From a virus, in the IMG/VR virus record IMGVR_UViG_3300017727_003535, positions 1 through 25,919 of that record: a stretch of 25,919 nucleotides of DNA. One strand, given 5' to 3'. Numbering within the stretch: the stretch's first letter is position 1; the number at the start of each line of letters is the position of its first letter. The position numbers and the translations under genes are program-made. Shown here in pieces: positions 1,969 to 16,717 of the stretch. Below the pieces are notes generated by a model, which was not told where the DNA came from, ran no database searches, and was given only the letters and a program-made list of their open reading frames with translations.

Positions 1969-2631
1969 ATGGAACAGCTTCTCACACACATATATCATCG
2001 TCAATCCAATCCTCTGCACTCAATAGTGAATTCAGATGGCAAGATAAACAAATGGTCTCTGCCGATAGAACAGGATCTAGCATCAGCTGTGATTGTGGAA
2101 GTGTTGGAATACACCTACAACAATGTGAATCAATGGAAGTCTGAACCTGGAGATCACGGCACAGATCATCTGCGTTACAAACTGCCTCTGCCTGATTCTG
2201 CTCGTGGACCTGCACTCAAAGAACTGTACACAGTGTATTCAGAGAATGCTCGACCACACACAGAGGCACGCAATGCTCACTATGAGTTTGTCAGCATTGT
2301 GAGACCAGGTGGCACAGTGGGTCGTCACAACGATGTGCAACACATGAAAACGCCGCCTAAAGGATCGTCGCTGAGAAAGTCACGTTTCTCTGTGCAGTGG
2401 CCAGTGGACTGTGATTTTCGAGTGGACGGTGTGGGTCGATTGGATACTCGTCCAGGTCGTGTGTATCTGTTTGATCACTGTCGCAATCACTGGGTGGAGA
2501 ATCGAAGCACCGACACAGACAAGATAGACCTCAGCATCATGATAAACTCTGCTCCTCAGTCAGCACGATTGAATCGAGCAGTGCTACACAGCATCGAAGA
2601 ATGGTTTGAAGCCAACACTCTCACACTGTAA
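1969..2631 (+). CDS. 2OG-Fe(II) oxygenase-like protein (divergent fourth paralogue)
   Basis: 220 residues. The second half carries a double-stranded beta-helix iron triad: H-N-D at 120-122 and a distal His in R-N-H-W (H174), followed by a conserved strand D-K-I-D-L-S-I at 184-190. The architecture (HxD, then W/F-H, then a basic residue and a strand ending L-S) matches the three tandem paralogues at 9958-12037, but the 2-oxoglutarate-binding Arg is replaced by Lys185 at the equivalent place. Members of the Asp/Asn hydroxylase-like class hydroxylate protein side chains or small molecules with O2 and 2-oxoglutarate. The target here is unknown. It lies in the higher-GC block, upstream of a secreted protein and the iron permease. 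Confidence 0.6.
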   Translation: MEQLLTHIYHRQSNPLHSIVNSDGKINKWSLPIEQDLASAVIVEVLEYTYNNVNQWKSEPGDHGTDHLRYKLPLPDSARGPALKELYTVYSENARPHTEARNAHYEFVSIVRPGGTVGRHNDVQHMKTPPKGSSLRKSRFSVQWPVDCDFRVDGVGRLDTRPGRVYLFDHCRNHWVENRSTDTDKIDLSIMINSAPQSARLNRAVLHSIEEWFEANTLTL

Positions 2632-3025: not shown

Positions 3026-3628
3026 ATGATAACATCACTCGCGGCCACCTCTTTCATATGGTTTAGAGAAGGTCTAGAAGCATTCCTCATAATTCAAGCC
3101 ACGTGGATGCTCACAACCAACACAAGACAACGACTCGCACTGACACTCAGCACACTACTTGCAATAGCATCATCAATCACACTCGGCTACTTTGCCATTG
3201 AATACATACAAAAAGATTTTGATCGTGTGGAAGCCTACACATCTCTAGTGGCATCAGCTCTGCTATTCTGGACTGCCTGGTTCTGTCATGGAGCATCACA
3301 GCATCTGCACAACATCAAACACACCCTGACCAACAACCAAGTCAAAGGCACAGTGCTGGCTCTAGCAGTGATAGTGTACCTCACAGTGTTCAGAGAAGGT
3401 GCAGAGATAGTAGCATTCTTGTTGGCTCTGTATGTTGCAGGCGCATCTCTGACCAGCATTGGATTAGGTGCAGTGATTGGATTAGGTGCGTTAGGTTTGG
3501 TTGGTTACACAGTTTCCAAACGAATACAGAAGATACCTGTTGCAAAAATATTTAAAACATCCAGATGGTTGTTTGCACTGATGGCAGTGTACTTCTTATA
3601 CTATGGCATACACGAACTGTTAGAATAG
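3026..3628 (+). CDS. FTR1-family high-affinity iron permease
   Basis: A 200-residue polytopic membrane protein with both R-E-x-x-E motifs that define the FTR1/EfeU iron permease family: R-E-G-L-E at 14-18 in the first helix and R-E-G-A-E at 123-127 in a later helix. These glutamates coordinate iron during passage across the inner membrane. Hydrophobic segments lie roughly at 5-24, 38-58, 72-90, 107-136, 138-160 and 180-196. Cellular members are usually about 270-280 residues with seven helices, so this is a shortened version. No EfeO or EfeB partner is seen nearby. It is the last gene of the higher-GC plus-strand block, with a ribosome binding site and a late-type octamer upstream. An iron permease is an unusual phage cargo gene; a role in iron uptake during infection is inference. 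Confidence 0.85.
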   Translation: MITSLAATSFIWFREGLEAFLIIQATWMLTTNTRQRLALTLSTLLAIASSITLGYFAIEYIQKDFDRVEAYTSLVASALLFWTAWFCHGASQHLHNIKHTLTNNQVKGTVLALAVIVYLTVFREGAEIVAFLLALYVAGASLTSIGLGAVIGLGALGLVGYTVSKRIQKIPVAKIFKTSRWLFALMAVYFLYYGIHELLE

Positions 3629-9957: not shown

Positions 9958-10740
9958 TTAAAACAGTTCTACTCCACCTTGGTGTTCATCAGGATTATAT
10001 AATCTGTGTGATTGGTTTGGTTTACAATATTTTTCAGTGTCTTCTAAATATCGAATACCGTTATACATTGTTTCTTGATCAATCCATTTCATTTCTATAA
10101 GTTCATCAACAAACTTATCGTAATCTATATCATCTATAGAAACATCCAACGAAACAATAGCACGAAGCTCTGCTGTGTTATTTCTTACCCAGTGCCATGC
10201 GTGTGTGTTCAACACAATTGGTTTTGCCATATTATACTCATGGCATTTGTGTTCGTGTTCCCATGGTGGGAATTGATTTTTTCCATCGTCAACTCCTGCA
10301 GGTATTCTTGTTGTTCTATCAATATCGTTATTCCATTCCCAATACGATGAACCAACCCAAGCCTTGTCAATGTCTTTTGGCATAGCAATAGGAACATTTA
10401 CAGCGGCCGCTCTGTCTCGGTCTCTATGACATCTAATATGTCTGTTCTGTTTTTGTTCAAGTATACAAATCTTGTTGATGTATTTGGCCCATGGTGTGTC
10501 GTCCATGAGTTTTAAGAATCGTTCATTGTGTTCTGGATTATCTAGATCCGGATAATGTTTACCAGTTTTTGGATCAGCATCGTAATGATGAAACGGAATC
10601 CTCCATATAGATCCTTCGTCTTTTTGTTTTTGTTTCCCGGCGACTCTAGCATTAATAATATCCATACCAAGTTTAGCCCAAGCTTCAGTCCAACCTTCTG
10701 GTGGAGTTATAATTGTAATGTTTGATTTCATTTTATCCAT
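9958..10740 (-). CDS. 2OG-Fe(II) oxygenase-like protein A (tandem paralogue)
   Basis: 260 residues, the longest of three tandem paralogues. The iron site is H-R-D at 105-107 (in C-H-R-D-R-D-R) and H183 in N-T-H-A-W-H-W-V, with R193 eight to ten residues later in E-L-R-A-I-V-S-L-D-V as the probable 2-oxoglutarate carboxylate ligand. V-N-V-P-I just after HxD marks the next beta strand. The layout matches the Asp/Asn beta-hydroxylase-like class. A C-terminal extension of about 50 residues, ending G-G-V-E-L-F, is absent from paralogues B and C. It overlaps paralogue B by 13 bases, so the three are translated in sequence. Substrate unknown; a small molecule, sugar or protein side chain are all possible. 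Confidence 0.7.
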   Translation of the reverse strand: MDKMKSNITIITPPEGWTEAWAKLGMDIINARVAGKQKQKDEGSIWRIPFHHYDADPKTGKHYPDLDNPEHNERFLKLMDDTPWAKYINKICILEQKQNRHIRCHRDRDRAAAVNVPIAMPKDIDKAWVGSSYWEWNNDIDRTTRIPAGVDDGKNQFPPWEHEHKCHEYNMAKPIVLNTHAWHWVRNNTAELRAIVSLDVSIDDIDYDKFVDELIEMKWIDQETMYNGIRYLEDTEKYCKPNQSHRLYNPDEHQGGVELF

Positions 10741-11399
10741 CCGTAGTATTTAAGTTTGTCACACATAGCGTCGTAAGAAATATTAGAGCAATCAATTGAA
10801 AGCTGGCTCCTTGATTCCTGCGATAGGTTTAAAACTGTATGCCACGATCGTGTGTTAATCATATGACAACCGTTTATTTTAAATTCTGTTAACTCTTTAA
10901 TAACCCTGTCTTCTATAGCATTTCTTTTTTCATCCCAACTACCGTCTGCTTTACAAGTTTCATACAGTTGATATTCCGCATCAGATGTTTTTATATTGTG
11001 CATTAATAGTTGCGATTGTTTGGTAATGTGAATAGGAAAGTTTATAGCATAAGATCTATTCCTGTCCATGTGCAAAGGCAAAGAAGAATAAGGTCCAAAC
11101 GTGAATAGTTTTATTTCAGTCACCTCAGAACGAAAAAAATCTCCAAACTCATCATCTATAGAAGTGTTCAGCCCACTGGTAATAATATTTTCATCCCACC
11201 CTTTGTTGTTACTGTACAACACGTGTCTTTCAAACTGACCAGTTTGACTTCGTTCTCCAGTGATAGGATTGTGACCTCTAATAGTTTCTTTCTCAACTTT
11301 TTGTACAACAACTTGTTTGTGTAGTACTGATTGACCAAGATTAGTTAATGCATCAACTAACTTGTTTGAAAATGTTATGTGTGTTGCATTTACAGCCAT
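10728..11399 (-). CDS. 2OG-Fe(II) oxygenase-like protein B (tandem paralogue)
   Basis: 223 residues. Iron ligands H110 and D112 in L-P-L-H-M-D-R-N-R, H187 in N-T-R-S-W-H-T-V, and a 2-oxoglutarate-binding Arg at 197 in E-S-R-S-Q-L-S-I-D. Both motif blocks align with paralogues A and C (HxDR-R, then N-T-x-x-W-H, then R-x-x-x-S-x-D), so the three arose by duplication. The N-terminal 90 residues differ strongly from A and C, suggesting a different partner or substrate contact surface. Its start overlaps the end of paralogue C by 10 bases. Hydroxylase activity is inferred from the intact triad. Confidence 0.7.
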   Translation of the reverse strand: MAVNATHITFSNKLVDALTNLGQSVLHKQVVVQKVEKETIRGHNPITGERSQTGQFERHVLYSNNKGWDENIITSGLNTSIDDEFGDFFRSEVTEIKLFTFGPYSSLPLHMDRNRSYAINFPIHITKQSQLLMHNIKTSDAEYQLYETCKADGSWDEKRNAIEDRVIKELTEFKINGCHMINTRSWHTVLNLSQESRSQLSIDCSNISYDAMCDKLKYYGWIK

Positions 11400-12037
11400 C
11401 CGGCGTCTCTAAAAATTTCAATAGTTTCTTCGTATGGAGTATAGTTAATGTCATAGGACAATATACTTCTTACATTTTCAAATATACCGTTGGATAGTTT
11501 ACGTATAGGTTTAGTAGCATCGTAGTTGTGATCAACCCAGTGCCAAGATCGTGTATTGAGTATCACAGGTTTCCCTAATTCGTATTTCTCACCTTCGTCG
11601 TCTAGATCAAATGTTGGATTCTGATCGTTTGGGTGCATCGTTAACCACTTTGGATCAATTGTGTTGTTTAACTCGTGTCTGTAAACTCCTAGGTGTGTAC
11701 CTGCAGGTATAACAACAGGAATGTTCAATGCACACTCTCTATCTCTGTCAATGTGTACTTTTTGAAATCTGCCATGCTTTAGATTCAACATCATTGCACC
11801 AGTTGTTATTTTAAGGATAGATTCTGGTATCCTAGATTGTATACTGTCATACAATTTGTTATGCTCAGGATTATCACATATGGCCTTCCCACCTTTGTGT
11901 ATACGTATTCTAAAGATAGAACCTTGATTAACAATTTCTTGTTTACCAGATTCAGCATCAGCTAACAGTGTCTTACACAAGGTTGTAATATCGTTCAACA
12001 AATCTGTTGGTATGTTTAATGCAGTATAGTTTTTCAT
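11390..12037 (-). CDS. 2OG-Fe(II) oxygenase-like protein C (tandem paralogue)
   Basis: 215 residues. Iron triad H95, D97 (V-H-I-D-R-D-R) and H166 (N-T-R-S-W-H-W-V), with R190 in E-N-V-R-S-I-L-S-Y-D as the cosubstrate ligand. It shares with paralogue A the N-terminal block G-S-I-[WF]-R-I and D-N-P-E-H-N, so A and C are closer to each other than to B. Its start codon overlaps the stop of the aminotransferase-like gene by 4 bases, making the order aminotransferase, C, B, A, FkbM a tightly coupled run. Possible role: successive hydroxylations on a common scaffold; the sequence does not show which. Confidence 0.7.
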   Translation of the reverse strand: MKNYTALNIPTDLLNDITTLCKTLLADAESGKQEIVNQGSIFRIRIHKGGKAICDNPEHNKLYDSIQSRIPESILKITTGAMMLNLKHGRFQKVHIDRDRECALNIPVVIPAGTHLGVYRHELNNTIDPKWLTMHPNDQNPTFDLDDEGEKYELGKPVILNTRSWHWVDHNYDATKPIRKLSNGIFENVRSILSYDINYTPYEETIEIFRDAGWL

Positions 12038-13000: not shown

Positions 13001-13981
13001 TTAAACAAACTGCTGGTTGGCTTTGCGTATGTCTGCTGTGTTGGAGTCGTTCCATTTGAACTTGGCTCTGCTACAGGTATTGCACATCATGTTTTTCTTC
13101 TTGTCGTTGTAGGTAGTATCGTAAATCAATTTGTGGTACCGGGAAACATTTTCCCAAACACCACTAACACCAATATCAAACACATTACCAAAGTCTGTCT
13201 GTCCTGTAGCATCATCACAGCATAAAACTACCTGCCCGTCTACTAGCACTTCAAGTGTACGCAGTATCTTTCCATGCACCATGTCACAGCCTTTTACAAA
13301 TTGTTTTTCAGATATCTTAAAATCTAGCCCATCTTCATCAAACTTGTTGTACACCAATCTGTTCTCTAACCAGTTAGTTTTCTTTTTTACTTTGCCGAGT
13401 GTTAGACTTTGTATTTCCTGGATCACAGGAGTGTAGTGTTTTTTTTCAGGATCTTGTATCTTGTGCTTAACACCAATATTCATCTTCTCACTAATGGAAG
13501 GATACTTGTCCTGTATCATCATCAGTCTTGCTTTTGTAACGTCCCAGTCCAGATCCATCCACTCTCTAATTTCTTCTTTGTTGTATCCTATAATGGATAT
13601 GTTGATCCTGTCTATGGTCTCTATGTATTTTTCTATTAGGTCACATTTCTTCTCACCGAAGCTCACAGCGTTTGTGGTCAGGCTTATCTTGAGACCGTGA
13701 CTCTGGCATATTTCAAAAATAAGTTCAAGGCTAGGGCACACCAACGGATCTGAATACCTCCATGGTTTTATTATTGTTTTGCCAGGATCTATGTTGTGCT
13801 TCTTTATACCGTCTGCAAAATCTTCAAGCAATAATTCAACTTGTTCGTCTGACATCCTCTTGCCTCGGTATTCCTTGTCTTTTTCTAGATAGGTGTATGG
13901 GCAACAGAAACATTTTGCATTGCAAAGATTGATAGGTTCAAACGCAAGTTCAATTGGTGTGGGCAGTGTAAGATCAAACAT
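13001..13981 (-). CDS. Radical SAM protein with SPASM-like C-terminal cysteines
   Basis: 326 residues. The 4Fe-4S cluster motif C-N-A-K-C-F-C-C gives CX3CX2C with C20, C24 and C27. K-P-W-R-Y-S-D-P-L occupies the usual G-E-P position. C-terminal cysteines cluster in G-C-D-M-V-H-G, V-V-L-C-C-D-D and C-N-T-C-S-R-A, with the strand and turn pattern F-G-N-V characteristic of SPASM/twitch domains that bind auxiliary clusters. SPASM proteins modify peptides (RiPPs, anaerobic sulfatase maturation) or act on sugars and cofactors. I see no obvious precursor peptide beside it. It overlaps the second FkbM gene by 8 bases, and both are visibly higher in GC than the genes on either side, suggesting joint acquisition. 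Confidence 0.85.
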   Translation of the reverse strand: MFDLTLPTPIELAFEPINLCNAKCFCCPYTYLEKDKEYRGKRMSDEQVELLLEDFADGIKKHNIDPGKTIIKPWRYSDPLVCPSLELIFEICQSHGLKISLTTNAVSFGEKKCDLIEKYIETIDRINISIIGYNKEEIREWMDLDWDVTKARLMMIQDKYPSISEKMNIGVKHKIQDPEKKHYTPVIQEIQSLTLGKVKKKTNWLENRLVYNKFDEDGLDFKISEKQFVKGCDMVHGKILRTLEVLVDGQVVLCCDDATGQTDFGNVFDIGVSGVWENVSRYHKLIYDTTYNDKKKNMMCNTCSRAKFKWNDSNTADIRKANQQFV

Positions 13982-15574: not shown

Positions 15575-15648
15575 TAATTCCTCCCCATGTGTTTAGGACC
15601 GTGATCACGACTAATCCAATCTAATAATCTATACCAATTCTTACGCAC
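15574..15648 (-). CDS. Possible 24-residue basic peptide with GTG start
   Basis: A 25-codon frame bridges the gap between the oxygenase and the small secreted gene: the GTG at 15648 overlaps the last codons of the oxygenase gene, and the TAA overlaps the next ATG (TAATG). The product would be basic and tryptophan-containing (R-K-N-W-Y-R-L-L-D-W-I at 2-12). No ribosome binding site precedes the GTG. The end-to-end coupling is the only support. Confidence 0.3.
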   Translation of the reverse strand: MRKNWYRLLDWISRDHGPKHMGRN

Positions 15649-16699
15649 GGTATGGATCTAGATTTAGATACTTCCCCCATTCGGTATAATAGTGTCGCAT
15701 ACCGACTTCGTCGTGTATAGTTCCGTTCTCGTGTCTACCATGCAGTATACGTCTGTTCTCTGTGCCTTCACGCATTGTTGTTCCTTGCCCAGCCACTCCT
15801 ATTAGGTCTTCGTGTAGGTTACGTCCAAACGGTCCCCATATTGAGTTGTGATGGTTAACACGAGTTAATCTTTCTTCTGGTGTGTCTTTGCGTAGTCCAT
15901 ATCCTCTAAACTCTATTAGTACTTTGTTTGGTCCTAGTGGAGTTACTGAGTCTGAACGATATGCACTTCCTCGTAGGTTAAAATTGAATCCTGGAAATAG
16001 GTCAACCATGTACCACTGGTTGGGCGGCAGGTTAGGAAAAGATAATTCTCCGCGGTCTTCAAAACCGTCATACTCAGTATAGTTAACAGTAAAGCTAGAC
16101 ACGTTGACATGACCATTATCAAAAGGAACATTTTTTCTAGCGAAGTACTCATCATTGAATCCCGACACACGATTGAAGTAGTGCATGAAGTCATGATAAA
16201 ATTCTGAGTTGGTATCATGCCACAACTTGTAATTGGTATTGATGACTGCTTTGTGATAATGAAATACTTCTAGTTCTTCTGTGTCAATAGCATCAGCAAT
16301 ACAATCAAATGCACCTGCTGTCCATTCATCTACAGACTGCGTAGGATTAGGATCAAGTGTTACCCATACCATTCCTCCGTGCTTTACTTCACAGTGTAGT
16401 TTAGGTTCAACTGTTACAACAGGTGCTTTAAATGTACCGCTTGGTTGACTAACTCCATAGTTTCGCCATGCATGAACACGTTTGCCAGTGTTGTATGCAA
16501 GTACGTTTACACCTGCTATCTGTGAAGTTCTAAAGTCTCCTTGTTTATACATTTCACTAATGTGACATATAGGTACCCATACCTTTGAAAAGATACGTTC
16601 TTGTTCTTGTGCAAATATTTCTGGGCAGTTGTAGGCTGTGCTACTAATTGATTCTACTACTGGCTTCTTTAACCAGTTGGCGTGATTACGTGGTGGCAT
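15641..16699 (-). CDS. Ring-hydroxylating-oxygenase alpha-subunit-like protein lacking the Rieske cluster ligands
   Basis: 352 residues. The N-terminus (Y-N-C-P-E-I-F-A-Q-E, then F-S-K-V-W-V-P-I-C-H and G-D-F-R-T) is typical of Rieske non-heme iron oxygenase alpha subunits, and the catalytic domain keeps the facial triad: H169 and H173 in S-E-F-Y-H-D-F-M-H, Asp298 in L-H-E-D-L-I-G, and the bridging Asp162. But the 2Fe-2S motif (CxH...CxxH, normally about residues 80-125) is gone: R-V-H-A-W-R-N-Y-G (74-82) runs within about 20 residues into H-C-E-V-K-H-G-G-M-V-W, so both cluster loops are deleted. Electron delivery would need another route, or the protein no longer oxygenates. AAGGAG precedes the start. 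Confidence 0.75.
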   Translation of the reverse strand: MPPRNHANWLKKPVVESISSTAYNCPEIFAQEQERIFSKVWVPICHISEMYKQGDFRTSQIAGVNVLAYNTGKRVHAWRNYGVSQPSGTFKAPVVTVEPKLHCEVKHGGMVWVTLDPNPTQSVDEWTAGAFDCIADAIDTEELEVFHYHKAVINTNYKLWHDTNSEFYHDFMHYFNRVSGFNDEYFARKNVPFDNGHVNVSSFTVNYTEYDGFEDRGELSFPNLPPNQWYMVDLFPGFNFNLRGSAYRSDSVTPLGPNKVLIEFRGYGLRKDTPEERLTRVNHHNSIWGPFGRNLHEDLIGVAGQGTTMREGTENRRILHGRHENGTIHDEVGMRHYYTEWGKYLNLDPYRA

Positions 16700-16717
16700 C
16701 TAGTTCTCCTTACGATG

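Follow-up and report, generated by a model that had tools for sequence, protein, structure and literature searches.

How can an oxygenase function that has lost the cluster from which its iron is fed with electrons? This question is raised by a gene at positions 15641-16699 (minus strand) of a viral sequence of 25,919 nucleotides (IMG/VR record IMGVR_UViG_3300017727_003535, positions 1 to 25,919), hereafter called the window. Within a single chain of a Rieske oxygenase, over 40 Å separate the cluster from the iron, and electrons travel from chain to neighbouring chain via a bridging acidic residue (PMC7948474). A first-pass annotation of the window had described a Rieske-type oxygenase without Rieske cluster but with intact iron ligands (H169, H173, D298), and proposed either another electron donor, for example a partner subunit, or a binding or esterase-like role. 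Here we propose that this protein, named alphaC, probably forms the catalytic half of a methanesulfonate monooxygenase split over two chains, and that it takes its electrons across a subunit interface from a Rieske-reductase fusion of the host.

The window encodes a Rieske-less alpha subunit

The alphaC gene encodes 352 amino acids and has a ribosome-binding site region (AAGGAG; 16700-16712, minus strand) upstream of its ATG. Pfam, alignment, AlphaFold2 and PDB matches identify the product as a catalytic alpha subunit of an MsmA-type (methanesulfonate monooxygenase-like) oxygenase that is devoid of a Rieske domain. PF00848 (Ring_hydroxyl_A) is the only Pfam match (residues 141-345, E 3.5e-8); the Rieske family PF00355 is not matched even at E 10, CxH...CxxH is absent from the chain, and no PHROGs family matches it. 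The 2-His-1-carboxylate catalytic domain of Rieske non-heme iron oxygenase alpha subunits is therefore present (PF00848), and the same-chain [2Fe-2S] domain with CxH...CxxH is missing. Between aligned positions 80 and 101, alphaC has 19-21 residues versus 68 in full-length MsmA. The deletion thus amounts to 47-49 residues, more than the roughly 40 first estimated, and in the alignment it removes exactly the stretch with both cluster-binding loops. A scaffold remnant of the Rieske domain with deleted loops is left at residues 1-112 (16364-16699, minus strand; alignment and model), and the catalytic domain extends over residues 126-341 (15677-16324, minus strand; alignment and PF00848). An AlphaFold2 model built from 51 relatives (pLDDT 81, pTM 0.85; residues 30-150 mostly above 90 pLDDT) predicts with confidence a full alpha-subunit fold in which the N-terminal scaffold is still present. 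The PDB entries that match it best, aligned over nearly the whole length, are without exception alpha subunits of Rieske oxygenases, among them terephthalate dioxygenase (7vju, E 2.6e-19) and carnitine monooxygenase CntA. By alignment, the iron ligands His169 and His173 lie in the motif E-F-Y-H-D-F-M-H (residues 166-173; 16181-16204, minus strand), which also holds the probable bridging residue Glu166, and the third ligand is Asp298 (15806-15808, minus strand). The three ligands are invariant in the aligned phage (n = 17), SAR116 (n = 15) and full-length (n = 16) sequences.

Loss of the cluster is fixed in viruses, and the gene is under purifying selection

IMG/VR contains more than 600 copies of alphaC. 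The Rieske motif was found in 0/162 of the viral copies examined and the iron-ligand motifs in all 162, so the loop loss is fixed across the phage relatives. Sister phages with a complete CxH...CxxH, the case named in advance as speaking against the annotation, were sought, and the search turned up no Rieske motif in any viral MsmA. An isolated deletion, frameshift or assembly error is ruled out by the agreement of 162 viral and 15 SAR116 copies, and a pseudogene by purifying selection: the median dN/dS of viral alphaC is 0.037 in the catalytic part and 0.18 in the N-terminal part. The near invariance of ligands and catalytic half (dN/dS about 0.04) also disfavours the suggested binding or esterase-like role.

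At least two phage lineages carry alphaC, namely HMO-2011-type loci and RNR-bearing, T4-like loci such as that of the window, and no conserved neighbour common to both was evident. HMO-2011 infects Ca. Puniceispirillum marinum IMCC1322, which belongs to SAR116. Its gp61 is the sole full-length close relative among cultured phages (70% identical to the window alphaC), and the gene is missing from 12 cultured Roseobacter and four Pelagibacter phages with HMO-2011-like terminases. Two phage-like contigs from metagenome-assembled genomes, L097 and L098, were left out of the bacterial counts. They are labelled Rickettsiales and Hellea, probably through binning errors; L097 resembles the window in its RNR and tail genes, and L098 has short phage-like neighbours.

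SAR116 bacteria encode a complementary Rieske-reductase fusion

The signature CxH-X26-CxxH is specific to the alpha subunit of methanesulfonate monooxygenase (MSAMO), MsmA. A scan of bacterial genomes yielded two types of relatives: proteins of ~410-430 aa with this signature and, in SAR116, shorter ones of 362-364 aa that are Rieske-less. Loss of the cluster is thus not specific to phages, since SAR116 chromosomes encode an equally Rieske-less protein; the window alphaC is 77% identical to that of IMCC1322. The SAR116 orthologue belongs to an msm cluster that also encodes MsmB, MsmC and a reductase, in the order divergent ABC transporter, alphaR-MsmD, beta subunit MsmB, Rieske ferredoxin MsmC, x282 (a 282-aa protein) and alphaC. 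In IMCC1322 (L174, 7900-12502), a dmsABC-like set is inserted between the ferredoxin and x282 genes, and one SAR116 genome has two alphaR/alphaC sets (G001 contigs C16 and C45; L085 genome).

The alphaR-MsmD protein (~800 aa) combines an MsmA-like N-terminus, an intact CPH-X26-CMFH that is kept in all alphaR, a degenerate catalytic region and a complete flavin reductase. Pfam detects Rieske, Pyr_redox_2 and Reductase_C domains in it and does not detect PF00848; the model of alphaR is of modest confidence (pLDDT 69). The two proteins are reciprocal, each retaining what the other has lost. Identity to full-length MsmA in the catalytic region is 73% for phage alphaC, 73% for SAR116 alphaC and 32% for alphaR, and in the N-terminal/Rieske region 41%, 39% and 66%, respectively. 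E166, H169, H173 and D298, invariant in alphaC and full-length forms, are lost in 10/10 alphaR, likewise in that of IMCC1322. Only 22 of the 93 catalytic-region positions that are invariant across alphaC and full-length forms are retained by alphaR, and alphaR proteins share 87% identity in the Rieske region versus 50% in the catalytic region.

These comparisons also bear on the bridging residue, for which Asp162 had been proposed, probably wrongly. D162 is invariant in active forms as well, yet it is kept in the dead copies of IMCC1322 and L090, where E166 is gone. Since E166 (E-x2-H169) stands at the aligned position of CntA E205, a proven bridge, it is most likely the bridging acidic residue of alphaC and, judged by the alignment, the predicted electron carrier across the subunit interface. 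In CntA, electrons cross between neighbouring subunits through the bridging Glu (PMC7948474).

Among 136 genomes of the SAR116 order, both halves occur in 12, a one-piece MsmA in one, neither in 123 and a single half in none (Fisher p 2e-17 for co-occurrence, a value that ignores shared descent). In two genomes the halves are non-adjacent; alphaR and alphaC share a contig there and are separated by about 11 kb. The complete genome of IMCC1322 encodes both, and therefore the host of HMO-2011 encodes the partner. The earlier suggestion of another donor or a partner subunit thus pointed in the right direction, the probable partner being the SAR116 Rieske-reductase fusion.

No such partner was seen on the viral side. 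The other open reading frames of the viral alphaC flanks (1.46 Mb) contain no Rieske motif, and no viral contigs with alphaR, full-length MsmA, beta subunit, x282 or ferredoxin were found by single-protein scans, which reach close relatives only, and an alignment scan with two peptide patterns. Phage alphaC copies do not lie in an msm cluster that includes MsmB, MsmC and MsmD. Within the reach of these flank and contig searches, a Rieske partner encoded inside the phage was rejected.

A proposed split enzyme shared between phage and host

In SAR116, the one-piece MsmA has probably been replaced by alphaC and alphaR-MsmD. Their co-occurrence suggests that they form one complex. Electrons would then pass from NADH via the reductase (MsmD) domain to the Rieske ferredoxin MsmC, to the alphaR cluster and through Glu166 to the iron of alphaC. 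A mixed alphaR/alphaC ring, together with the beta subunit MsmB, could work in principle, because in ordinary Rieske oxygenases the Rieske cluster of one subunit feeds the iron of its neighbour. The alphaC iron would hydroxylate methanesulfonate, or a close analogue, to yield formaldehyde and sulfite. During infection, phage alphaC would replace or top up the host subunit within the alphaR complex, and the phage would probably benefit from sulfur and C1 units supplied by sulfite and formaldehyde. Several observations speak against this reading. The system occurs in only 13/136 SAR116 genomes, although phages with alphaC are very common, and no even alternation of two subunit types is possible in an alpha ring of three members. 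The closest cultured relatives of the window phage, HTVC008M and Melnitz, infect SAR11 and Methylophilales, and the scan for alphaR covered SAR116; a host of the window phage would presumably carry alphaR as well. Phage and SAR116 alphaC are 93% identical in the catalytic domain and 52% in the N-terminal part, and the latter value may mean that their partners differ.

Potentially, alphaC could instead form a homo-oligomer that is fed directly by host MsmC or another 2Fe-2S ferredoxin, with alphaR as a structural or regulatory leftover. An MsmC-like Rieske ferredoxin is encoded in the same host cluster as alphaC, ferredoxins are common in all hosts, and with direct feeding the phage would not depend on hosts that bear msm genes. 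However, the conserved Rieske region of alphaR (87% versus 50%) is then left unaccounted for, as is the retention in alphaC of Glu166 and of an alpha fold with its Rieske scaffold, and we consider direct feeding unlikely. It is slightly less likely still that the enzyme is the same split one and that the phage version acts on a small substrate other than methanesulfonate. Other sulfonates or sulfur compounds would be compatible with the ABC transporter and the dms-like genes found next to the SAR116 cluster, and the substrate assignment of split forms is based on sequence; against another substrate stand the catalytic identities to SAR116 alphaC and canonical MsmA and the 93 catalytic-region positions common to all alphaC and full-length forms. 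Finally, phage alphaC might be a decoy that occupies host oxygenase complexes and shuts off or redirects the host pathway, in line with the single subunit brought by the phage and the faster evolution of its N-terminal half. A decoy would not need to retain iron ligands and a catalytic half, which all 162 copies do under a dN/dS of 0.037, and this function appears very improbable.

Relation to known systems and previous reports

The proposed split enzyme resembles several characterised oxygenases in part. MsmA of the Filomicrobium, Hyphomicrobium and Methylosulfonomonas type is homologous to alphaC over its full length (56-64% overall, about 73% in the catalytic region) and has the same iron ligands and E166; in contrast, alphaC lacks the MSAMO-defining CxH-X26-CxxH, which is found in host alphaR, and needs a separate Rieske provider. 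CntA shares the alpha fold and inter-subunit transfer via a bridging Glu (PMC7948474), but it carries both centres on one polypeptide and is a homotrimer. In the characterised caffeine N7-demethylase complex of Pseudomonas putida CBB5 (NdmC/NdmD/NdmE), a Rieske-less oxygenase subunit is likewise served by a reductase on which the Rieske domain is placed (PMC4408171). The feature that marks such split enzymes, a Rieske domain on a separate reductase-linked protein, is present in SAR116 hosts; the likeness to NdmC is one of analogy, not of sequence membership. NdmCDE belongs to a different oxygenase family, NdmD has an extra Rieske domain whereas the SAR116 reductase is fused to an entire, degenerate alpha subunit, and the alphaC catalytic half is carried by phages.

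The absence of the motif from HMO-2011 MsmA, from one of the two IMCC1322 MsmA and from many viral or GOS 'MsmA' was already known and was left unexplained (PMC4433239). Marine viral msmA was described as a sulfur-cycling auxiliary gene (PMC4928673, PMC10134843), and other papers took it as functional in methanesulfonate degradation. HMO-2011 gp61 and the second IMCC1322 'MsmA' belong to the same Rieske-less alphaC family; they were published as catabolic MsmA or auxiliary metabolic gene, and the separate, dead Rieske-bearing protein was not mentioned. The literature searched, which comprised papers other than the original HMO-2011 report, gave no account of the dead catalytic site of alphaR or of a split enzyme. 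What is new here is that the missing Rieske half is present in the SAR116 host. On present evidence, viral msmA cannot act alone, and its effect hinges on a host with the Rieske half. The usefulness of phage alphaC should be predictable from one host gene. The Rieske-bearing 'MsmA' of SAR116, which serves as a marker for methanesulfonate oxidation, itself lacks an iron site. The pair alphaC/alphaR is also a clean system, provided by nature, in which to study electron transfer between subunits.

Evolution of the two halves

All alphaC, including those of SAR116, group in one clade that is separate from full-length MsmA (100/100); the alphaR sequences likewise form one clade, within alphaproteobacterial MsmA (96/95). 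In the best tree SAR116 alphaC is nested among phage lineages; AU tests reject neither phage monophyly nor SAR116 monophyly (p 0.30 and 0.115), so that transfer between phage and host in either direction is compatible with the tests. A further-reaching and rather doubtful reading gives a viral origin to the cross-species enzyme of a viral catalytic half and a bacterial electron-delivering half. As the deepest branches of the alphaC tree are viral, alphaC might have been viral first and plugged into the complete MsmA of the host; after its later uptake by SAR116, the host's own alpha subunit could have given up its catalytic site and fused to the reductase.

Other genes of the window

Four further proteins of the window contain HxD...H (1969-2631, plus strand; 9958-10740, 10728-11399 and 11390-12037, all minus strand). 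The first matches the Asp/Asn beta-hydroxylase family PF05118, and the second does so below the cut-off. Close to three of the four, a radical-SAM/SPASM protein (13001-13981) is encoded together with FkbM methyltransferases, and these genes are possibly a cluster for peptide or glycan modification. The window also encodes an FTR1-family iron permease (3026-3628, plus strand; PF03239, E 4.7e-15) and an iron-sulfur assembly protein of the MIP18/SufT-like family PF01883 (4905-5348, plus strand), which adjoins a MazG-like pyrophosphohydrolase.
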